39,676 nucleotides of DNA, taken from assembly GCF_003439125.1 (NCBI RefSeq), contig NZ_QSUU01000006.1, forward strand, positions 115,333 to 155,008, written 5' to 3'. The notes under the pieces were generated by a model. The model was not told the DNA's origin. It did no database searches and was given only the letters and a program-made list of their open reading frames with translations. Position 1 is the first letter of the stretch, and the number at the start of each line of letters is the position of its first letter. The position numbers were made by a program, and so were the translations under genes. This document shows, piece after piece, positions 12,667-23,523 of the stretch. Source of the DNA: Collinsella sp. OM04-5. GTDB taxonomy: Bacteria; Actinomycetota; Coriobacteriia; Coriobacteriales; Coriobacteriaceae.

Positions 12667-13193
12667 CGCCCGCCCCAATCTGCAAGTTTTTCTCACAGCA
12701 TGACAAGAACTTGCGAGTTTTGCAAGTTTTTCTTACGTAGCGACAAGAACTTGCAAAATCTCCTCGGAGTCATTTGCGGTCGGATTCTGGCGAGGCCATG
12801 CAAAGCAGCAGGCCACGTGGCAACAACCAATGCCAACTCTTTACAGAGCCTCTGCCCCATTAGCATCCCCATGCCACCTCGCCCCTCTTGAATGCAACAA
12901 ATCTAGGTAGATGTCCCCGAGCCAACAAACGCAACCATACGTCCGATGTAAAGCCCGCAAGTTAATTACCTCCCACCTATCGTGTTGGCGCCTCGACCGC
13001 CATAGACGTCAAATACCCCGCCAGGCACCTGCCTCAAAATACTGCAGCAAGAAATGACGACGCGACGCAGTTCGATGTCCCCCATGTGTATCGTCTTGAC
13101 AAATGGATTCTTTTATAAGAGCTGGCCGCATTGAGACAAATCCAATAGAATGAATCTTTGCATTTTTGTCACGCACGTTCGAAGGGAGTCAAA
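12667..13193. other. Gene-free region between divergent accessory genes
   Basis: This 527-bp gap separates the ATPase (minus) from the methyltransferase (plus). It holds the tandem palindromes at 12681-12755. Near the methyltransferase a TTGACA (from 13097) and a TAGAAT are present but not well spaced as a pair. No gene was recognised in the middle. Confidence 0.5.
12681..12755. repeat. Two tandem palindromes upstream of the AAA_14 gene
   Basis: Two ~34-bp units (12681-12714 and 12721-12755) repeat with a 40-bp period. Each opens TGCAAGTTTTTCT and closes GACAAGAACTTGC, so each is an inverted repeat (TGCAAGTT/AACTTGCA); the central bases differ. They start 15 bp upstream of the ATPase start codon, inside the expected promoter, and are best explained as tandem operators. 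The other AAA_14 gene in the window also has tandem repeats upstream (21963-22041), of different sequence. Confidence 0.75.
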
Positions 13194-14087
13194 GTGAAGG
13201 CAGCCTCTTTCTTCAGCGGAATCGGCGGTATTGACCTCGGCTTCGAGCGTGCCGGCGTTGAAATCGTCTTCCAAAGCGAAATCAATAATTTTTCGCGGGC
13301 AGTGCTACAAAAGCACTGGCCGGATGTCCAGCTAGCAGGAGATATCAATGAAGTCCAACCCGAAAGCATCCCCCAAGCAGAAGTCTATTTCGGAGGATTC
13401 CCCTGCCAAGACCTTTCGCTTGCCAACCAAGGAAAACGCCTCGGTCTTGCCGGATCGCGAAGCGGACTCTTCTTTAAGTTCGCAGAACTCGTCGCTGCCG
13501 CAAAGCCTCGATGGATTTTTATCGAAAACGTTCCCGGACTCCTCAACTCAAACAACGGAGAAGATTTCAGAGCCCTGCTCACCAAATTGGATGAGCTCGG
13601 GTATTGCGTATCATGGCGAGTACTGGACGCAAAATACTTTGGAACACCCCAACGACGTCGCCGCGTCTATATTGTCGGAAGTCTTGGAAACTTCGGCTCC
13701 GCTGAGGTACTTTTTGGACAAGGAGCAGCTCGAATCTCTTCTAAATCGCGCAGAAGCACGGACCACGCCTATGCCCCAGGACTTGAAAAAGAGCATCGAG
13801 TCTCAGATTACTACTCTATCCAACACGCCGGGATTGGCAGAAAACCTTCAGCGGGCCCGCAAGCAAAAGGATATAGAAACGACGGAGAAACTTACACTTG
13901 CGATTCAAGAGGAAGCTCCGACGCTATTTGTCAGACGCATGCTTCCTTTAGAGTACGAGAGACTCCAGGGATTTCCGGACGACTGGACTCTCGTAGATGG
14001 ACAGCTCTAGGAAACGCTGTCTGCGTGCCCGTTATAGAATGGATTGCGCGCCGTATCGTCGAGGTCGATAAGGCTCAGAACAGCTAG
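13194..14087 (+). CDS. Cytosine-5 DNA methyltransferase, motif IX out of frame
   Basis: A Dcm-type methyltransferase of 297 residues that would methylate cytosine C5 in a short DNA site. This frame shows motif I FFSGIGGIDLGF (6-17), motif IV GGFPCQDLS (67-75, nucleophile Cys71), motif VI ENVPGLL (111-117), motif VIII QRRRRVYIVG (153-162) and motif X ALGNAVCVPVIEW near the end. The expected motif IX (LPLEYERLQGFPDDWT) is encoded at the right place but one frame over; here those bases read RVRETPGISGR. Either two small compensating frameshifts have scrambled about 25 residues, or both frames are used. Start is GTG at 13194, with GAAGGGAG upstream. It overlaps the convergent nuclease gene by four bases, forming a likely restriction-modification pair. 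Confidence 0.85.
   Translation: MKAASFFSGIGGIDLGFERAGVEIVFQSEINNFSRAVLQKHWPDVQLAGDINEVQPESIPQAEVYFGGFPCQDLSLANQGKRLGLAGSRSGLFFKFAELVAAAKPRWIFIENVPGLLNSNNGEDFRALLTKLDELGYCVSWRVLDAKYFGTPQRRRRVYIVGSLGNFGSAEVLFGQGAARISSKSRRSTDHAYAPGLEKEHRVSDYYSIQHAGIGRKPSAGPQAKGYRNDGETYTCDSRGSSDAICQTHASFRVRETPGISGRLDSRRWTALGNAVCVPVIEWIARRIVEVDKAQNS
13348..14010 (+). other. Overlapping frame in methyltransferase gene
   Basis: An open frame of 220 codons lies inside the methyltransferase gene, shifted by one base. Its end encodes RRMLPLEYERLQGFPDDWT, a textbook C5-methyltransferase motif IX. A middle part (SEVLETSAPLRYFLDKEQLE, about codons 110-129) resembles, from memory, short phage proteins associated with methyltransferase genes. 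No clear ribosome-binding site precedes its ATG. It may be a relic of frameshifting in the methyltransferase or a real overlapping gene. Confidence 0.45.
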
Positions 14088-15031
14088 AACGGAATGTCAA
14101 TCCTTTCATTTTCAAGACTGCAGAATTGCCCCTGAAATGCCTCCAGAGTCGGTTGTCCTTGGTTGATTAGTGCTTGAACAAACGTCTGGTAGTTCGTATA
14201 CAGCGTCCGGTCTTCATCGATTGTCAATGGAATGGGGCCGTCCTCAACAGAGCGGCTCTTATCCTCTTTAAAGGCGAGAAGAGCCAACGTCCAGTTGTAA
14301 TCCTTCAAATCAGGCAGATTCACTGACTCTAGTCGCTCCATAAGATAGTCATAGAGCAGCGTGCCCACACAAAACGCAATCCCAAGGCCTTTCCATGTCT
14401 TCATGGCGATATTGCCCTTGATTAGAAATTGCTCTTGTTGTCTTCTCCAAGCATTGGTGACCAAAGTATTTGCAGTAGTTTCGGCACGCAGCTGCTCATT
14501 CGTCCTCTCGTTTTCAGTCATGTTTTTCCATTTGCGAACACGCTGAGTAATTTTGCCGGTATCCGATGTTTCTCCACCGCCTTGCATTTCAAGAACAAGT
14601 CGATTAGGGCCAGATGTCGACGACTCCCCGCTGCGCGTGGTAATTATAAAATCAGCATGATATGCACTGCCCTTACTCACTCGAAGGGACTCTTCTCGTT
14701 TGACGCAGATGTCAGACGGGTCAATGCCCCCATCAAATATATGCTGCGCAGCCATGGTTAGTATTTTCTTTTGATGCGAACAAAGCGGGAGATCTTTTTT
14801 GGTGGAGCACAATCTCTCCGAACACGATATCCAAAGCACTCCGTCCTGATCCCTTACCGAACAGACCGGCTCGTTTTTTGCTTTAAGCTTCTTGCACGTA
14901 TTACCGCCGGAGAAGGGGCAGTGCGGAACCGGCTCTTCCGGGCTCCATCCGGCATATGGAATATCTATGGGGTGAATGGGCGTCAAAGCGTCTGTTCTTT
15001 GACCATAATACTCTGCAACTCTCGTACTCAT
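14084..15031 (-). CDS. Probable type II restriction endonuclease, NotI-like
   Basis: A 315-residue protein read as the nuclease partner of the convergent cytosine methyltransferase. The N-terminal part is cysteine-rich (Cys38, 46, 57, 70, then 75 and 84), recalling the Fe-Cys4 site of the NotI family. The middle has ADFII (Asp127) followed by LVLEMQGGGETS (Glu148, Gln150), which fits a PD-(D/E)XK active site with Gln replacing the usual Lys, as described for NotI. A C-terminal helical region follows. The ATG at 15031 has only a weak GGATGGG upstream. The nuclease role is inferred from these motifs and the tail-to-tail arrangement with the methyltransferase. The recognition site cannot be read from the sequence. 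Confidence 0.6.
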   Translation of the reverse strand: MSTRVAEYYGQRTDALTPIHPIDIPYAGWSPEEPVPHCPFSGGNTCKKLKAKNEPVCSVRDQDGVLWISCSERLCSTKKDLPLCSHQKKILTMAAQHIFDGGIDPSDICVKREESLRVSKGSAYHADFIITTRSGESSTSGPNRLVLEMQGGGETSDTGKITQRVRKWKNMTENERTNEQLRAETTANTLVTNAWRRQQEQFLIKGNIAMKTWKGLGIAFCVGTLLYDYLMERLESVNLPDLKDYNWTLALLAFKEDKSRSVEDGPIPLTIDEDRTLYTNYQTFVQALINQGQPTLEAFQGQFCSLENERIDIPF

Positions 15032-15132
15032 TTCCCATCCAATCGTAATGCTAGGTAGCTGGATAAAGGATGCTTTCAGCCAAGCGGTACACAGTCACAC
15101 CATTAATGGTATAGCTGCAATTCAATTCTAAT

Positions 15133-15918
15133 TTACCCCTTAAACACCATATCGTTGTGGTATTCAATAAAATCTGGTCTTGGGCTCGATTGTTTAGGCA
15201 ATGTAATTCGCTCGCCGCTATAACGCCACAAGAACTCGTCCTCGGCAGCCCCATGTCCAACCACACTCGACACCACAATCTTGAAATCCTTCGTTATGGT
15301 AATAAGTCCCTGGTCAAATGCCTTATCGTGCAGCGCGTTCAACAGCAATCCGTTATCTGGCGCCAGGCGCTCGGTCCGGGGATCAGCCACGTTCCAGGGC
15401 TTGATATGACTTGCAACCAGTAACGTCGGGTTCGATAGGCCCGTTAAACAACACCGCGAGCGATAATTAACGAGCAGCGTATTACGAAAGAACTGTTGGT
15501 TAACACGCGCTGAGATTATTGCCTCACGCTCTTGCCCCTCAGGCAAATCGATGCCAATTGCCTCTTTCAGCTCTCTGCTCATCGAATTATCAGAGTTAAG
15601 CTGGTCAAAAAATGCGCCCGCCGCTTCCTCGACCAACCTATCGCCGCTCGATGAATACTCTGCCCAAACCAATCTATCCATCTTGCTGGCATTAACCATG
15701 CCCACCTTGCCGCGTGCTCGACGCCGGTCGTCTAACGAGGCGAGGTTCCATATCTTTAAGGAAACCGCCGCCGGCGTTCTGCCGATGGCATGTGCCAGCG
15801 TCTGTATATCTTCGCCTTTGTCATCGATAAGCCTTGCAGGCAGGGCGAGATATAAAAACAGCGCCGCAAGGGTTTCTTCCCTCGACCAGTTTTTTCTTCG
15901 CTCCGCCACACCAATCAT
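15133..15918 (-). CDS. HNH endonuclease
   Basis: A 261-residue protein with an N-terminal helical domain (about 1-75, including a helix-turn-helix-like TLAHAIGRTPAAVSLKIWNL) and a C-terminal HNH nuclease domain of the HNH_2 kind. The nuclease core reads CCLTGLSNPTLLVASHIKPW (156-175), then APDNGLLLNALHDKAFD (186-202), giving His171, Asn189 and His197 as active-site and metal residues. Such proteins are frequent in restriction and defence clusters. It lies about 100 bp upstream of the NotI-like gene on the same strand, so both may be co-transcribed. It may be an accessory or independent restriction nuclease. The start ATG has a weak GAGTGAG site. Confidence 0.8.
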   Translation of the reverse strand: MIGVAERRKNWSREETLAALFLYLALPARLIDDKGEDIQTLAHAIGRTPAAVSLKIWNLASLDDRRRARGKVGMVNASKMDRLVWAEYSSSGDRLVEEAAGAFFDQLNSDNSMSRELKEAIGIDLPEGQEREAIISARVNQQFFRNTLLVNYRSRCCLTGLSNPTLLVASHIKPWNVADPRTERLAPDNGLLLNALHDKAFDQGLITITKDFKIVVSSVVGHGAAEDEFLWRYSGERITLPKQSSPRPDFIEYHNDMVFKG

Positions 15919-16107
15919 CTCACTCGCACGTTGTTCGCTCGATAAAACCAGGATAATCCAAGTCGATGGTTCCTATCGTAGTCAAAGCGCCCATTATCAA
16001 TTCGCCTTTGCAACATCCCGTCACAGCACGGGACTCAAATTATGTAACGCTAATTTCGCCGGCGCGGACATGACAATCACAGCATGTTTTTACGTTTCAG
16101 CGCTCAT

Positions 16108-16173
16108 TTAAAACTGTCTTGCGGCATTCCTAACAGCCATCTCCAATGCGGCAGGCGTCTTGTACTTCACCAT
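16108..16173 (-). pseudogene. Remnant of an AbiEii toxin gene (N-terminal stub)
   Basis: Fifteen bases past the AbiEi stop there is a good ribosome-binding site (GGAGGAC) and an ATG opening MVKYKTPAALEMAVRN, which ends at a TAA after 21 codons. The opening matches the characteristic start of AbiEii nucleotidyltransferase toxins as I know them. Nothing toxin-like continues in any frame before the HNH gene, so the toxin has been lost and only its translation start remains. The antitoxin is intact. Confidence 0.6.
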
Positions 16174-16188
16174 GTCCTCCGTTTCGCA

Positions 16189-16815
16189 TTACCCGTTTAG
16201 CACCATCAGCAAAGGCCTCATGAGCTCGCGTCTTTTGGCGGTTTTAGAGTTCTCCTTTACGAGATCTTTCAGCCGCTGCGTATCGAGCCCGCGTCCAAGC
16301 GCGTCGTGATAGGCATTAATAATTAATGAGGGGTCCTCGCAATCGAGGCAAAGATCAACAAGCGTGCGCTCGGGCTTGGTTACCGGCAGGCCGTCGAGCC
16401 AAACGATGTCCTGCTCAGCGATCTCGCGCTTTACAAAAGAAAGGGATTCGTTTCTTGTATTGATACGCGTGGGCGCGGTCATCCTGTAGGGGGACAGATA
16501 GAAATCGCCCATTTGCTGCAGGTTCGCCGCCGTCGTACCGCTCACGGCGATGCCATCCCACTGGCGTTTTCTCTCCCACGCGCAAAGGGAGGGATTGGTG
16601 AGCTTCCAAAAAGCGTTGAGCTCGTCGGTATCTCGGCACTGTGTGCCCAACATCCGGTAGGCGCCGTGGCATATCCGTTCAAGACGCCCCGCACGGCATG
16701 AGTGTGCCAGCGCATCTCGAGAGATGTCCATGCGAGCCGCTTGTTGAGCTGTGGTGAACACGCCCTCCCTCTCGGAAAGCTCTCTTATCGCCGTTATGTT
16801 GCTAAAGTACTTCAT
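16189..16815 (-). CDS. AbiEi-type antitoxin / transcriptional regulator
   Basis: A 208-residue protein of the type IV toxin-antitoxin AbiEi group. The N-terminal winged helix (about 1-60) has VFTTAQQAARMDISRDALAHSC and then LERICHGAYRML, the standard AbiEi opening. The C-terminal part (about 115-208) has LPVTKPERTLVDLCLD, also typical. In characterised systems AbiEi represses its own promoter and counteracts the AbiEii nucleotidyltransferase. Here only a 21-codon toxin stub follows, so the gene is an orphan antitoxin. The start at 16815 (MKYFSN) is the family's normal start; an upstream ATG adds eight residues. It is more AT-rich than the housekeeping genes. Confidence 0.8.
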   Translation of the reverse strand: MKYFSNITAIRELSEREGVFTTAQQAARMDISRDALAHSCRAGRLERICHGAYRMLGTQCRDTDELNAFWKLTNPSLCAWERKRQWDGIAVSGTTAANLQQMGDFYLSPYRMTAPTRINTRNESLSFVKREIAEQDIVWLDGLPVTKPERTLVDLCLDCEDPSLIINAYHDALGRGLDTQRLKDLVKENSKTAKRRELMRPLLMVLNG

Positions 16816-16933
16816 GTTGCAATTGCAGGATATTTTCATACTTTTGCAACGTGATTTTAATTCCTTATGATCGAAGCGCTTTGTTTATCCTATGTCTGAC
16901 GCCGTTTTGCACCGGTACCCCATCCCCCGCTAT

Positions 16934-17115
16934 CGAGGTCTAATACTTTTCCGCGAAGTGAACGTCTGTTTTAGGACCCCTGAAGCATCCGCATTTTTCG
17001 TCGGCAAAATCGCAGGATTCCAGTATCGAAACCGCAGGAAACGATGCCCTTAAAGTGTCTATGCTTCGGGGGTCCGATTTAGCTCGTTCACTTCTCGGAA
17101 AAGTATTAGACCTCG
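16934..17115. repeat. 182-bp palindromic element with terminal inverted repeats
   Basis: The 19-bp sequence CGAGGTCTAATACTTTTCC at 16934-16952 is exactly inverted at 17097-17115. The arms continue inward with mismatches (GNGAAGTGAACG, then GGACCCC.GAAGCAT), giving ~60-bp arms around a ~60-bp centre. There is no ORF inside. It could be a miniature mobile element or a long hairpin RNA. No flanking target duplication was identified. Confidence 0.75.
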
Positions 17116-17183
17116 CTGCTAGCCACCCAGAAGAACACCTCTCCCTTCCCCACTGCCACCCAAAAACTCATCCAACATTAATC

Positions 17184-17211
17184 TTGGCTCAAGAATCGCT
17201 TAATCTATAAC
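17184..17211 (+). promoter_or_regulatory. Candidate promoter of UBA-like / two-component operon
   Basis: TTGGCT (17184-17189) and TATAAC (17206-17211) are separated by 16 bp, a fair sigma-70-type promoter. The predicted start near 17218 gives a leader of about 110 bases before the ATG at 17330. Confidence 0.4.
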
Positions 17212-17329
17212 CTGCACTATAGAGTTCGACCAAGGGCGGGGCGGCGCCGCGCGACGCAGGCCGCCGAACGCAACGCTCGCGCCCGGGCAAATCGCCCGGC
17301 GTCGCGCCCATCGAACGAAAGGAAAGGTC

Positions 17330-17872
17330 ATGGACGACCTCGAAAAAGTTGAAACTATCCGCACCAAGTGCAACGTGAGCTACACCGATGCCAAGGCCGC
17401 GCTCGACGCTGCCGACGGCAACGTTTTGGATGCCATCATTTGGCTCGAGTCGCAGGGCAAGACCCAGACCACGTCGGCGCATGCCGCCACCGAGTCCGCG
17501 CCAGTCGATGAGCCCTCTGCCGAGATGGTCGCCGCGCAGGTCGCTTACGAAAAGTCGAGCGAAAAGACCGACTTCTCCAAGAAGATGGACAGCGTGTGGG
17601 AGTACCTCAAAAAGCTCTTCCGCCTGAGTCTGGACACCAAGTTTATCGCCACGCGCCGCGATGCGATCATCCTCAACATCCCCATCCTGATCCCCATCGT
17701 CGCGCTGTTTGCCTGGGGCGCCACGATATGGCTGATGCTGATTGGCCTGTTCTTTGGCATGCGCTACCGCATCGACAGCGACGGCGACGTGCCCGGCAGC
17801 ATCAACAACCTTATGGATAGCGCTGCTAACGCCGCGGACGACATCAAGCAAAATCTCAACGACGACAAGTAA
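17330..17872 (+). CDS. UBA-like N-terminal domain membrane protein (DUF4342-like)
   Basis: A 180-residue protein. The N-terminus (about 3-43) is a three-helix UBA-like domain, with VSYTDAKAALDAADGNVLDAI the conserved part, similar to the helper domain of EF-Ts. A Ser/Ala linker follows, then an amphipathic stretch and hydrophobic segments (about 115-145) that would enter the membrane, and a polar tail. The layout fits the DUF4342 family, whose function is not known. The ATG has a strong GGAAAGG site. It is first in an apparent operon, 18 bp before a response regulator and kinase, so it may be part of, or regulated with, that signalling unit. Confidence 0.75.
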   Translation: MDDLEKVETIRTKCNVSYTDAKAALDAADGNVLDAIIWLESQGKTQTTSAHAATESAPVDEPSAEMVAAQVAYEKSSEKTDFSKKMDSVWEYLKKLFRLSLDTKFIATRRDAIILNIPILIPIVALFAWGATIWLMLIGLFFGMRYRIDSDGDVPGSINNLMDSAANAADDIKQNLNDDK

Positions 17873-17890
17873 TCGCAGACGGGGGCACGC

Positions 17891-18659
<769 letters not shown>

Positions 18660-18676
<17 letters not shown>

Positions 18677-19955
18677 CGCCGAGGCCAAGCGCGTCACCTC
18701 CATCGCCCGCGCCATCAACTGGAGCTATATGTGGCGTCGCCTGATGAGCTACGTCTGGCTCGATCTGTTGCTGTTGGTTATTGCGGTGGCGATCCTCGTC
18801 TATGGATACAACCAGACGCTGCCCAACGGCGCGTTTACCGCAGGATGGATCCCCGGCGCCGCCGTTCGCAGCATGTCGCTGACGCCCGCGCGCGGCTGGG
18901 ACCTGACAACGCTCACCTATACCGTCGAGCTTGCGCGTACCACCAAGACTTTCCCCCTCGCGCAGGACCTCGTCGCGCTATGGCCTCTCTACCTTGTCGT
19001 TGTGAGTTGGCAGGTCATCAGCGTGCTCAACATGCTCGGCGGCGCCCGCCGCGTGCGCCGCACCATGGCGCCGCTCAACGACCTGGCCCTGCGCGTGGAC
19101 GAACTCGGCCGCATGCAGCTCTCCGGCGGCAAGATGGAAACATTGGAGCAGGCCATCGAGCGCGCAAGCGTCGACTCGCCGAGCGTCACTACCGGCGACG
19201 CCGACCTGGCAAGCATCGAGGTTGCACTCAACCGCCTACTGCGCCAGATGCAAGAGGCCAAGCTGCAGCAGATGCGCTTTGTCAACGATGCGAGCCACGA
19301 GCTGCGCACGCCCATCGCGGTGATTCAGGGCTACGTGAACATGCTCGACCGCTGGGGCAAAGACGACCCGGACGTGCTGGCAGAGTCCATTGCCTCGCTC
19401 AAGGCCGAAAGCGAGCATATGCAGGAGCTCGTGGAGCAGCTGCTGTTTTTGGCGCGCGGCGATGCCGGACGCACGGTCCTGCGGCGTGCGAATACTAACC
19501 TGGCCGCACTGGTCGGCGAGGTATGCGAGGAATCGCAGATGATCGATGCCGAGCACACATATCGGCTGGCTTTTGACGCCTTGCTTGCCAGCGACCCGCG
19601 CTGCGACGCGCCCGTCGACGTGGCGCTCGTGAAGCAGGCTCTGCGCGTGATTGTGCAAAACGCCGCCAAGTACTCGGATGCGGGAACGACCGTCGCATTT
19701 GGCATAACGCCCAATGCGGGCTTGGGCACGATCGACATAAGTGTTGAGGACGAGGGCATCGGCATGAACCAGGAATCCGCAGCTCACGCGTTTGAACGGT
19801 TCTACCGCGCCGACAATGCACGCGATGCCGGCGCACAGGGCTCGGGTCTGGGGCTTGCCATTGCCAAGTGGATCGTCGACAGCCATGGCGGCGTCATTGG
19901 CGTGACCTCAGTCGAGGGCGTCGGCAGCCGCTTTACGATTCGCCTGCCGCGATAG
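18660..19955 (+). CDS. Sensor histidine kinase
   Basis: A 431-residue membrane kinase paired with the overlapping response regulator. Two membrane segments (about 32-50 and 106-126) bracket a small extracytoplasmic loop of about 55 residues. A HAMP-like stretch (about 127-200) and the dimerisation box VNDASHELRTPIAV follow, with His213 the phospho-site. The ATPase domain has VIVQNAAKYSD (N-box), VEDEGIGM, FERFYRAD and GSGLGLAIAKWIVDSHGG, all intact. The ATG at 18660, inside the regulator's last codons with GGGGTGGG upstream, gives a normal N-terminus; the longer frame read through the regulator gene is rejected. A strong terminator follows. The stimulus is unknown. Confidence 0.92.
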
Positions 19956-19975
19956 GGATGCCCCTCGGCATAAAT

Positions 19976-20009
19976 AAAGGGATAGAGCCACGCGGCTCTA
20001 TCCCTTTTT
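19976..20009. terminator. Strong bidirectional terminator
   Basis: AAAGGGATAGAGCC (19976-19989) is perfectly complementary to GGCTCTATCCCTTT (19994-20007) with an ACGC loop, followed by more T. It separates the kinase gene (plus) from the convergent VOC gene (minus) and works in both directions. Confidence 0.92.
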
Positions 20010-20031
20010 GCTAGCTATGGCAGCTTGTGCG

Positions 20032-20406
20032 CTACTCGCGACACAGATGCACGGCGAAACCGGCGAACTCGCGCTTAAAGTACACGAGCTTGGTACCGCC
20101 GTCGGGCAGCAGCACGCGCGACTCCTCGTTGACCTCGAGCCCGCGCTCGGCAAACCACTTCTCCGCCGCATCGATGTCGTTGACGGCAAAGCCGATGTGG
20201 CCCTTGGTGCCACGACCGTTCTGCTTCATGATCTCGACCAGCGAATCGTTAAAGTACGAAACGGGGGTCTCGATGACGGGCAGGCCCATCATCGTCGAGA
20301 ACAGCTCCGCGATCTCCAGGGCGTCTGCCGGGTCGGTGGCGTTAATGCCCACATGGGCAACGCGCATACCAAAGAGCTCTACCGGGTTGGCGTTCTGCTC
20401 ACTCAT
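20032..20406 (-). CDS. VOC-superfamily (glyoxalase/epimerase fold) protein
   Basis: A 124-residue single-module protein of the vicinal oxygen chelate superfamily. MRVAHVGINATDP (14-26) opens the first beta-alpha-beta unit, with His19 a likely metal ligand. HIGFAVNDIDAAEKWFAERG (70-89) opens the second, and FAVHLCRE ends it. Family members include glyoxalases, epimerases and antibiotic-resistance enzymes, and the sequence does not decide among them. The gene lies 11 bp downstream of a PTS IIB gene on the same strand, so a role in handling the product of a phosphotransferase-imported sugar is a reasonable guess. The longer upstream frame overlaps the IIB gene and is rejected. Confidence 0.78.
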   Translation of the reverse strand: MSEQNANPVELFGMRVAHVGINATDPADALEIAELFSTMMGLPVIETPVSYFNDSLVEIMKQNGRGTKGHIGFAVNDIDAAEKWFAERGLEVNEESRVLLPDGGTKLVYFKREFAGFAVHLCRE

Positions 20407-20417
20407 GCAGTCAGCGC

Positions 20418-20705
20418 CTACTGAGCCATAACGTCGAGAACGGCCTTCTCGGCGGCAACGCGGTTCATGCCGGTCATGAAGGGCACGCCGCTCACGTACG
20501 GGCAGGTGAGGCCCTCGGGGGCAACGGTGGTGGCGATCAGCAGGTCGGCGCCCTCGTCGCAAGCGTCCTTGGCCTCGGAGATGGCGCACTGCACGATCTC
20601 ATACTTGCCGGCATAACCGTTGGCGTCGAGCATGGTAGCGACCTTCTGGGCAACGAGCGTGGAAGTAGCAGCGCCAGCACCGCAAGCCAAAACGATCTTC
20701 TTCAT
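20418..20705 (-). CDS. PTS system IIB component, galactitol type
   Basis: A 95-residue cytoplasmic phosphocarrier of the sugar phosphotransferase system. The start MKKIVLACGAGAATSTLVAQ holds the phospho-cysteine Cys8 in the CGAGAATS P-loop typical of galactitol-type IIB proteins, and the length is normal. It would pass phosphate from a IIA protein to a sugar bound by IIC. No IIA or IIC gene is adjacent, so it is an isolated IIB, followed only by the VOC gene. GAAGGGAGA precedes the ATG at good distance. The sugar cannot be determined. Confidence 0.85.
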   Translation of the reverse strand: MKKIVLACGAGAATSTLVAQKVATMLDANGYAGKYEIVQCAISEAKDACDEGADLLIATTVAPEGLTCPYVSGVPFMTGMNRVAAEKAVLDVMAQ

Positions 20706-20807
20706 AGGTAATGTCTCCCTTCATGGTTTACTTTAGGTAAGTGTACCGCAGCGAGCGATGGCACTTAGCCTCGATGAGCTTTTATGCCAGTTTGCTTGCG
20801 CGCTGCG

Positions 20808-20813
20808 TATAAT
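20808..20813 (+). promoter_or_regulatory. Consensus -10 upstream of TPR-like gene
   Basis: TATAAT at 20808-20813, preceded by TGCG, gives a likely extended -10 about 55 bp before the ATG at 20869. No strong -35 was found at 17 bp. Confidence 0.5.
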
Positions 20814-20868
20814 ACATCTAGTACGTGTTGCCATACCGCTCGCTTTATGAGCGACTAAGGACCCTAAT

Positions 20869-21492
20869 ATGCCCGATTCCCGCACCCTCTGGACCGCCGT
20901 CGTTATCATCTGCATCGCCGTGTCGGTGTTCTTTAGCGTCAAAAAACGCACCACGTTTAAACGCCTGCAGCAGCTTATGGCCGCTAAGCAGTGGGACGAG
21001 TTCGATCGCTTGCTCGACGGCAAACTCACCAGCATGCTGTACCCGCGCTACAACCGCGACTACCTGCGCCTGAACTCCTATCTGCTGCGCGAGGACCACA
21101 AGCGCGCCAGCGAGATGTTCGACCTGCTGCTGGGACTCAACCTGCCCAAGATGCAGCGCGTCGACCTGGTCATTAAGGCCTTTAACTACTACGTTGGCCA
21201 GGAGGACCGCAAAAAATCCAAGGAGTTGCTGCACGAGATCAAGGGCTTTGAGGGCGGTCAGGCCGAGGCAGTCGCACACGAATGCCAGCTGATGTACGAC
21301 ACGATGATCCTCAAGCGCCACAACGACATTCCCGAGCTGGAGCGCATGCTCGAAGAGGCCGGTGACGACAAGGTCAAGAGCTGCCGCCTGGAATACCTGC
21401 TGGCCCTGCAGTACAAGAACAAGGGCGACGAGGCCAAGTTTGCCGAGTACTTGGAAAAGTCGGGCCAGCACTCGATGGCTGTCAACGCGTAA
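20869..21492 (+). CDS. Membrane-anchored TPR-like protein
   Basis: A 207-residue protein with one N-terminal membrane helix (about 8-25, LWTAVVIICIAVSVFFSV). The rest is a cytoplasmic helical domain of repeated helix pairs such as MAAKQWDEFDRLLDGKL, HKRASEMFDLLLGL and EDRKKSKELLHEI, consistent with TPR-like repeats. I do not recognise a specific family. It may be a scaffold or assembly factor at the membrane, inferred from architecture only. The ATG has TAAGGAC upstream and a consensus -10. The gene ends 31 bp before the tRNA-Leu gene on the same strand. Confidence 0.7.
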   Translation: MPDSRTLWTAVVIICIAVSVFFSVKKRTTFKRLQQLMAAKQWDEFDRLLDGKLTSMLYPRYNRDYLRLNSYLLREDHKRASEMFDLLLGLNLPKMQRVDLVIKAFNYYVGQEDRKKSKELLHEIKGFEGGQAEAVAHECQLMYDTMILKRHNDIPELERMLEEAGDDKVKSCRLEYLLALQYKNKGDEAKFAEYLEKSGQHSMAVNA

Positions 21493-21523
21493 CGGGCGGC
21501 TTGTGCTAGACTTCTAGTCTCAC

Positions 21524-21608
21524 GGGGGCGTGGCGGAATTGGCATACGCAGGAGACTTAAAATCTCTCGCCGCAAGGATTGTGGGTTCGAGTCCCACCGC
21601 CCCTACCA
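21524..21608 (+). tRNA. tRNA-Leu (anticodon UAA)
   Basis: An 85-base cloverleaf with encoded CCA. The acceptor stem GGGGGCG (21524-21530) pairs with CGCCCCT, and discriminator A is followed by CCA (21606-21608). The anticodon stem-loop GGAGA-CTTAAAA-TCTCT places TAA at 21558-21560. A variable arm of the long (class II) kind is present, as expected for leucine, and the T arm reads GTGGG-TTCGAGT-CCCAC. A terminator follows at 21618-21657. Confidence 0.95.
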
Positions 21609-21617
21609 TTGGCTTTT

Positions 21618-21657
21618 ACGGGCCTGTATCTCCCAGGGATGCGGGCCCGTTTCTTTT
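21618..21657 (+). terminator. Terminator after tRNA-Leu
   Basis: ACGGGCC (21618-21624) pairs with GGCCCGT (21644-21650), with an inner TCCC/GGGA stem, followed by TTCTTTT. A closely similar hairpin follows the duplicated tRNA end at 21813-21850. Confidence 0.8.
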
Positions 21658-21784
21658 GCACGCCGGTGGGGCTCGAACCCGCGAGGGGCGAGCGTTAAGC
21701 AAACGCGGAGCGTTTGTAGCGAGCCGGCGAGGGCGCCGGCAGGCGACCGAGGCCGGTGCGTATTTGCTGCGCAAATTCGCAGAC

Positions 21785-21850
21785 GTCCCACCGCCCCTAC
21801 CACGCATTGTTTACGAGCCCGTGTCCCCCGGAGACGCGGGCTCGTTTCTT
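21785..21850 (+). repeat. Duplicated tRNA-Leu 3' end plus terminator (att-like)
   Basis: GTCCCACCGCCCCTACCA at 21785-21802 exactly repeats the last 18 bases of the tRNA gene (21591-21608). In both places a similar hairpin and TTTCTT follow; here ACGAGCCCG (21813-21821) pairs with CGGGCTCGT (21837-21845). The copies are 194 bp apart. A duplicated tRNA 3' end is what integration at a tRNA leaves behind, but no integrase is present, so this would be a scar or a local duplication. Confidence 0.7.
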
Positions 21851-21871
21851 GTGGATGCCGACACGGATGAT

Positions 21872-21941
21872 AAGTTGCGGTGGAATAGTTCCTGTTTTGA
21901 CTGGTTACCAGCTCATTTAAGAACTTTTTCACCGCAACTTA
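21872..21941. repeat. 70-bp palindromic element, copy 1
   Basis: AAGTTGCGGTG (from 21872) pairs with CACCGCAACTT (21930-21940), enclosing a GGAATAG stretch and an inner AGTTC/GAACT stem. The same design recurs at 23455-23523 in the same orientation, beyond the other end of the AAA_14 gene, with the inner stem changed to GGACT/AGTCC. Confidence 0.8.
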
Positions 21942-21962
21942 GATTGGCACTCCCACATTTTT

Positions 21963-22041
21963 CGATGGAAAAACGTGGTTGTCTCGCACATTTTCCGATG
22001 GAAAAACGTGGTTGTCTCGCACATTTTCCGATGGAAACGCC
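21963..22041. repeat. 33-bp tandem repeats upstream of the AAA_14 gene
   Basis: The unit CGATGGAAAAACGTGGTTGT plus CTCGCACATTTTC begins at 21963, 21996 and, truncated, 22029, with an exact 33-bp period. Each unit contains a CATTTTTC/GGAAAAACG dyad. The array ends about 10 bp before the -10 TATACT (22052-22057) of the ATPase gene, suggesting iterated operators. It is not a CRISPR: there are no variable spacers. Confidence 0.8.
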
Positions 22042-22051
22042 CAAATGGCCT

Positions 22052-22057
22052 TATACT
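22052..22057 (+). promoter_or_regulatory. -10 element of AAA_14 gene
   Basis: TATACT at 22052-22057 lies 24 bp before the ATG at 22081, directly after the tandem repeats. No consensus -35 is seen at 17 bp, as might be expected for an activator-dependent or repressed promoter. Confidence 0.5.
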
Positions 22058-22080
22058 AGCCGAGAGGGTTGGGAGGCAAT

Positions 22081-23450: not shown

Positions 23451-23454
23451 TGTT

Positions 23455-23523
23455 GAGTTGCGGTGGAATAGGGACTGGTTGGGGCCCGAAAGGGCGATTT
23501 TAGTCCGCATTTCACCGCAACTC
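23455..23523. repeat. 70-bp palindromic element, copy 2
   Basis: GAGTTGCGGTG (23455-23465) pairs with CACCGCAACTC (23513-23523). Inside, GGACT and AGTCC form a second stem. The outer arm and GGAATAG stretch match copy 1 at 21872-21941, while the inner stem differs in sequence but keeps pairing. It could also terminate the ATPase transcript. Confidence 0.8.

Follow-up and report, generated by a model that had tools for sequence, protein, structure and literature searches.

The present work concerns a pair of ATPase genes, each preceded by a short array of repeated DNA, in a stretch of 39,676 nucleotides from Collinsella sp. OM04-5 (contig NZ_QSUU01000006.1, positions 115,333 to 155,008), the whole of which is referred to below as the window. 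The two genes, called here gene A and gene B, encode proteins of the AAA_14/DUF4143 type (Table 1). Both score above the Pfam curated cut-offs, gene A with 102 bits for AAA_14 and 31.8 bits for DUF4143, and gene B with 79.1 and 109.4 bits respectively, and both are matched by the PDC-S01 profiles of PADLOC, gene A with 437.7 bits over residues 1-427 of 431 and gene B with 552.9 bits over residues 1-431 of 433. An NCBIfam search of seven family members returned no match. Because the two proteins are only 16% identical in alignment, it is fair to assign them to unrelated branches of the family, as a preliminary description of this DNA had done.

The array before gene A consists of two copies (12681-12714 and 12721-12754) which are spaced 40 bp apart, are 82% alike and each contain inverted arms, and the array before gene B consists of the units 21950-21982 (which holds CACATTTTTCGATGGAAAAACGTGG), 21983-22015 and 22016-22048. 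Tandem Repeats Finder reports the latter as 2.7 copies of a 33-bp unit with 96% matches, and ranks it as the strongest tandem array of the window, with a score of 162 against 58 for the next, a CCG run. Neither the gene A half-site GCAAGTTTTTCT, searched with up to one mismatch, nor the gene B dyad, searched with up to three, occurs again in the window. The gene A array scores above 200 of 200 dinucleotide shuffles, as does the array of locus L028, the representative of the cluster to which gene B belongs, and the array of gene B itself, tested at the orthologous locus L390, scores above 150 of 150 shuffles. Arrays directly upstream of both genes, and two palindromes with a 40-bp period before gene A, had been described correctly in the preliminary account; for gene B the repeat and its period stand, and the copy number of 2.4 given there is replaced by 2.7.

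Prevalence of the arrays

The frequency of upstream arrays was measured in two sets of genes, with gene starts in every set taken from a simple open reading frame caller or from the match itself. The genus set was assembled from 30 loci and 40 regions picked from the family matches listed for 43 genomes; it contains 79 family genes, including the two in the window, which form 57 clusters at 85% identity, 55 of them testable. The upstream 170 nt of each gene were compared with 200 dinucleotide shuffles, with significance set at p<=0.01, and the controls were the 241 genes of the same stretches with 100 nt or more of unoccupied DNA before them. The cross-phylum set consists of the best 80 of 572 gene-B-type relatives, named and from many phyla, of which 78 were testable, two loci having been dropped because they lie too near a contig end. 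Excesses over controls were assessed with Fisher tests.

The family is present in at least 40 of the 43 genomes of the nearest genus, with up to 12 matches in each among the matches listed. Within the genus set, a significant tandem repeat precedes 33 of 55 family genes, an inverted repeat 27 and one or the other 45, compared to 12, 34 and 42 of the 241 controls. The upstream DNA of the family genes has a lower G+C content (GC) than that of the controls (0.45 vs 0.56), and among the 60 controls with GC below 0.5 the corresponding counts are 6, 9 and 14. Across phyla, tandem repeats precede 47 of 78 gene-B-type genes compared to 9 of 171 controls; inverted repeats show a weak excess (13/78 vs 14/171, p=0.05). 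The periods fall into a small number of classes, being 32 or 33 bp in 46 of the 47 significant cross-phylum arrays, and 22-23, 32-34, 40 or 46 bp in 31 of the 33 tandem arrays of the genus set.

The preliminary description had staked its claim on arrays being commoner before family genes than before controls, in a test set beforehand, and on repeats being kept at orthologous loci. Both expectations were borne out, the first of them several-fold in the genus and cross-phylum sets alike, and the observation is confirmed as real, general and wider than had been stated.

In a set of gene-A-type genes made up of 29 fetched loci and the window (L199 was left out as a fragment), 18 of 30 pass the array test, a count for which the set has no control of its own. 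The close relatives of gene A share the 40-bp period and a core resembling AACTTGCA...TGCAAGTT, and in several distant members there is a single large dyad whose centre is about 23-37 nt upstream of the start codon, in some cases just under the threshold. A further branch (L385, L063, L048 and L067) has a period of 22 bp, and the L385 unit holds the perfect palindrome ACTCAGTATACTGAGT. Four gene-A-type relatives, each from a different genome of the genus (G004:C7, G009:C6, G011:C121 and G018:C1), contain one TAG apiece within the matched stretch.

A common frame with a variable core

The cross-phylum gene-B-type genes yield a 26-nt site model which reads roughly ACAAAAAGTCGTnnGAAAAAATGTAA. When the model is trained on one half of the genes and tried on the other, it finds sites before 33 of 39 and 36 of 39 genes, compared to 8 and 9 of the 171 controls. 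A larger fetched set of 139 loci includes re-fetched training loci and close copies, and the removal of 53 leaves 86 held-out genes which are less than 80% identical to the training genes and to one another; the model finds 59 of these 86, compared to 5 of 171 and 5 of 241 controls. The spacing between adjacent sites is 32 or 33 bp for 75 of 89 pairs, and for 121 of 149 pairs of the larger, overlapping set.

The site is bipartite, with a constant end formed by an A-tract and TGT, and a core of 6 bp. At the core positions 9-14, identity is 0.66-0.76 within arrays and 0.29-0.49 between genes, and most of the A-tract and TGT end is constant between genes. Because the core is alike within an array and less so between genes, with the frame held constant, each gene has a private core set in a common frame. 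These results divide the earlier proposal that the arrays represent a shared design and not shared ancestry of the DNA: it holds between branches, whose arrays differ, and fails within the gene-B branch, whose arrays seem to be inherited along with the gene, since the conserved element is common across phyla.

Specificity of the arrays to individual genes

With up to three mismatches, the gene B dyad has 23 matches in 8 of the 43 genomes, all of them directly before 10 family genes; none lies away from family genes, and the reversed control sequence has no matches. The gene A dyad has 9 matches in 6 genomes, 6 of which (in 4 genomes) precede gene A orthologues. The two gene-A-type arrays at L419 and L420 adjoin no ATPase gene. 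Because these orphan stretches match the gene A array of the window, and because the upstream flank of L420 is by eye that of the filled locus L184, they are likely to be operator relics left by gene loss, or else sites with another role. When viral contigs were searched for exact copies of 19 nt taken from the gene-B site, four single matches were obtained, with no family gene in the fetched stretches.

Arrays also differ between paralogues. In one genome all 10 of the paralogues examined have a significant repeat, and the repeats all differ except for one near-identical pair, which belongs to proteins that are 93% identical. The best 16-base match between upstream regions is 11-14 of 16, without a computed chance level, and 16 of 16 for the 93%-identical pair. 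In four other genomes a significant repeat precedes 8 of 10, 5 of 8, 5 of 9 (one masked) and 2 of 3 paralogues.

The ATPase is the sole widely recurrent gene cluster in the 80 cross-phylum loci, being found in 79 of them, with the next cluster found in 5. This makes a linked partner regulator unlikely, and the binder of the arrays is therefore most simply the ATPase.

Position relative to the promoter

Counting from where the last site begins, 20 of 121 gene-B-type genes have a -10-like box at +34, compared to about 3 expected; this would place the -35 element inside the last site. A second peak lies one period further on, at +67 (9 of 49 genes), and a third at +23 (18 of 132 genes), which may be an artefact of the TGTA end of the motif itself. 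Several Firmicutes have TTGTAA or TTGTAT, a spacing of 17 bp and TATACT, with the first hexamer within the site; the hexamer TATACT also occurs just past the third unit of the gene B array (Table 1).

Protein domains and candidate readers of the site

The AlphaFold2 models of the two proteins have mean predicted local distance difference test (pLDDT) values of 90.6 for gene A and 92.1 for gene B. In both, the ATPase is followed by a region which appears, from our reading of the predicted secondary structure, to be winged-helix-like. The fold resembles 2qen, 2fna and CED-4 across the ATPase and the helical part that follows it, as in STAND proteins. Foldseek also ranks Orc1/Cdc6, and its matches include the MalT-system entry 8bob; a sequence search against solved structures gives a weak match to VchTnsC (E 4.7e-5).

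Both proteins end in a PD-(D/E)XK-like domain. In gene B the corresponding site is formed by E365, D367, E380 and K382, which are conserved in 132, 129, 132 and 132 of 132 gene-B-type sequences respectively. The gene-A-type proteins lack this active site: the catalytic lysine is present in none of the 9 members aligned at that position (the window's gene A reads IQVT there), and Q368 replaces an acidic residue in 42 of 42 aligned sequences.

The covariation of site and protein was evaluated by partial Mantel tests over 132 gene-B-type genes. Site positions 5-9, 6-15 and 12-15 have their best protein windows at residues 381-395 or 355-367, in the PD-(D/E)XK-like domain, above the 99% level of the maximum-based null; positions 9-15 exceed only the 95% level, and positions 9-12 exceed neither. 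For the TGT end (positions 20-26) the windows fall in residues 233-253, in the winged-helix-like helices, with the best of them above the 99% level. A division of labour between the two domains is weakened by the constant A-tract (positions 16-20), whose window at residues 153-161 lies outside both and is just above the 95% null. An initial run over 70 genes placed its best windows in the PD-(D/E)XK-like stretches named above, but below the null. When 63 disjoint pairs are used, no family-wise significance is obtained (p=0.45 for positions 6-15; p=0.055 for positions 6-9, with the best window at residues 285-295, outside the PD-(D/E)XK-like stretches). With the disjoint pairs, the PD-(D/E)XK-like windows, chosen from the same data, give p=0.015-0.04 for three definitions of the core and 0.17 for the remaining one. 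These correlations are suggestive of a nuclease-like C-terminus that may read the variable core, and are to be taken as a lead only.

The gene B locus and the surroundings of both genes

The gene B locus, between a tRNA-Leu gene and a Ppx/GppA gene, was assessed in those 22 genomes whose flank is matched over a long stretch, the other 21 of 43 being matched in short pieces only. Gene B is present at 6 of these 22 syntenic loci and absent at 15, with one undetermined, and the segment gained or lost consists of the array and the gene. By eye, the left edge of this cassette lies at or near the array, beside a short hairpin, of which a second copy lies on the right flank. A hairpin of the same kind occurs at 12 of the 13 empty sites compared, and an exact 15-mer of this REP-like hairpin occurs in 22 of 421 loci. 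The flanking hairpins are possibly a recombination seam.

Profile searches place gene A beside a defence island at 13194-16839, whose members are included in Table 1. In addition, the first 60 or so residues encoded by an open reading frame at 17891-18676 are weakly similar to SduA/DUF4263 and PDC-M60 proteins (25.9 bits).

Table 1. Coordinates of the genes, arrays and flanking elements discussed in the text. Positions are those of the window unless a locus is named.
Feature	Position	Strand	Basis or remark
Gene A, AAA_14/DUF4143 ATPase, 431 aa	11371..12666	minus	Pfam, PADLOC PDC-S01, AlphaFold2 model, alignments
Gene A array, two 34-nt dyads, period 40 bp	12681..12755	minus	14 bp from start codon
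C5 DNA methyltransferase	13194-14087		Family-profile matches concentrated in first ~190 residues
Type II restriction enzyme	14084-15031		Beside gene A
HNH enzyme	15133-15918		Beside gene A
AbiEi-like gene	16189-16839		Beside gene A
Hairpin GTTGCGGTGGAATAG...CACCGCAAC	21871..21941		Left flank of gene B cassette
Gene B array, 2.7 copies of 33-bp dyad unit	21950..22048	plus	Tandem Repeats Finder
TATACT, -10-like hexamer	22052..22057	plus	Just past third array unit, by eye
Gene B, AAA_14/DUF4143 ATPase, 433 aa	22081..23382	plus	Pfam, PADLOC PDC-S01, AlphaFold2 model
Second hairpin copy	23454..23520		Right flank of gene B cassette
Orphan gene-A-type array, L419	2870-2961		No adjoining ATPase gene
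Orphan gene-A-type array, L420	2953-3029		No adjoining ATPase gene

Interpretation and alternatives

Each array is probably a private operator, to which the ATPase encoded just downstream would bind, repressing its own promoter. Repeated sites lie directly before the gene concerned, as in an autoregulatory operator, and autoregulation is favoured because the period is fixed, the core is private, a -10-like box is in phase with the last site in some gene-B-type genes, and no linked partner recurs. The tight self-control suggested in the preliminary description is kept as the preferred reading; for its other suggestion, that the nuclease-like C-terminus acts on the repeats, the covariation is no more than suggestive, and the 9 aligned members of the gene A branch lack the catalytic lysine. 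The components of this proposal are not equally secure. That the ATPase binds the array is probable, and this is the part that may be held with slightly more assurance than the whole; that binding would repress rather than activate is somewhat less assured, if still the better supposition; and the chances that the purpose of the system is anti-phage defence appear to be about even.

Under this proposal, the ATPase would bind its own array as an oligomer of several copies, making contacts that repeat every two, three or four helical turns (22-23, 32-34 or 40 bp, depending on the branch). The bound protein would cover the -35/-10 region and keep expression of its own gene low, until a signal, perhaps infection, shifted the nucleotide state of the STAND-like ATPase, so that the operator would be released and expression would rise.

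Several results weigh against autoregulation. The array test is failed by 10 of 55 genus, 26 of 78 cross-phylum and 12 of 30 gene-A-type genes, some of which carry degenerate sites by eye, and the model site is lacking in 27 of the 86 held-out gene-B-type genes. For three of the 9 matches to the gene A dyad (in genomes G012 and G035), the fetched 6 kb contain no gene A. A consensus scan finds no promoter-like pair at either gene of the window, and the -10-like box at +34 is missing from 101 of 121 gene-B-type genes. Finally, the winged helix of STAND proteins is often not a DNA-binding domain.

A more elaborate form of the proposal, which seems unlikely but deserves more weight than the rival explanations below, treats the protein as a STAND nuclease that carries its own address. 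The variable core would be read by the nuclease-like domain and the constant TGT end by the winged helix, and the array would serve as both operator and holding site, at which the protein would be counted, kept silent and insulated from its many paralogues until an invader upset the complex and released it as an active, sequence-specific ATPase-nuclease.

A first rival, to which a low probability is given, is that the arrays are bound by an unlinked host protein, such as one that silences foreign DNA rich in A+T or one that regulates defence in general. The A-tract-rich sites and the reduced upstream GC speak for such a protein, but the excess of repeats persists when the controls are restricted to those with GC below 0.5 (45/55 vs 14/60). 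In addition, one host protein could hardly read all of the arrays, because they differ between paralogues of one genome, because the site element is kept across distant phyla, and because, in the 43 genomes, the gene B dyad is confined to the upstream DNA of family genes.

An equally low probability is given to the explanation that the arrays are the ends or targets of a one-gene mobile cassette, moved by its TnsC/MuB-like ATPase together with the nuclease-like domain. The presence of gene B at only some of the syntenic loci, the position of the left edge of the segment near the array, the persistence of arrays where the gene is missing and the weak VchTnsC match all fit this explanation. However, the window holds no copy of the array on the 3' side of the gene, gain and loss can be explained by the flanking hairpins and homologous flanks, phasing with a promoter is not expected of transposon ends, and the 9 aligned members of the gene A branch have no catalytic lysine.

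It is much less probable again that the arrays act as RNA, in the form of leader hairpins or attenuators. Dyads are indeed present in many arrays (27 of 55 in the genus set), and the single dyads of several gene-A-type genes are close to the start codon, but direct repeats dominate in the cross-phylum set, where the excess of inverted repeats is weak. The near-whole-turn periods, together with the -10-like box that follows the last site in some genes, indicate that much of the array lies upstream of transcription.

Chance or replication slippage in A+T-rich intergenic DNA, for which the short repeats of either type before 42 of 241 controls can be cited, is strongly contradicted by the size of the excess, the held-out performance of the site model, the conserved tail and the fixed period, and can be given almost no weight.

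Significance and comparison with known systems

The passages on PDC-S01 in PMC12988326 rank it as the fourth commonest defence in prokaryotes, describe a fusion of an ATPase with a domain of the PD-(D/E)XK superfamily, and state that most such defence candidates await validation. The window proteins match PDC-S01 over nearly their full length, and these passages do not mention an upstream operator. Given how common PDC-S01 is, and that such candidates mostly await validation, the arrays give a direct handle on how the family works. They predict, gene by gene, which DNA each protein binds, they suggest how up to a dozen paralogues may coexist in one genome without cross-talk, and they offer matched pairs of regulator and operator from widely different bacteria.

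No mention of repeats upstream of this family was found in the literature searched, which included no preprints and few subscription papers. The parts of PMC7159879 reached by term look-ups contain nothing on such repeats, and neither "PDC" nor "DUF4143" occurs in the main text of PMC13092281.

The closest parallel in a defence locus is RptR, which, in the passages concerned of PMC12255303, binds direct repeats and thereby represses its own promoter in a defence island. The likeness would lie in autoregulation by way of direct repeats placed over the core promoter, an arrangement which is proposed in the present case. The difference is that RptR is a separate regulator of 9 kDa with 9-bp repeats, whereas here the regulator would be the ATPase itself, its site being about 26 nt long and recurring every two to four helical turns. 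IniR, as presented in part of PMC5760070, combines an SSO1545-like ATPase domain with a separate DNA-binding domain and binds a promoter; like MalT, whose system supplies the Foldseek match 8bob, it is a promoter-binding regulator with a STAND-like ATPase. The targets of these regulators are other genes, reached by way of a separate DNA-binding domain at the C-terminus, whereas the arrays described here lie before the ATPase's own gene. A further precedent is the plant NLR Rx1, for which a passage of PMC4599002 reports DNA binding by the NB-ARC domain. Unlike SSO1545 (2fna), PABY2304 (2qen), CED-4 and the plant NLRs, the proteins of the present family end in a PD-(D/E)XK-like domain, and their genes carry their own probable operator arrays.

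Controller proteins of type II restriction systems and iteron-binding replication initiators also autoregulate from repeated sites before their own genes; these are small helix-turn-helix proteins or replication initiators, whereas no replication function is indicated here. The autoregulatory operator array is thus a device already known, and what is new, as far as the literature searched shows, is a private, branch-conserved array in most of the examined genes of so common a candidate defence family.

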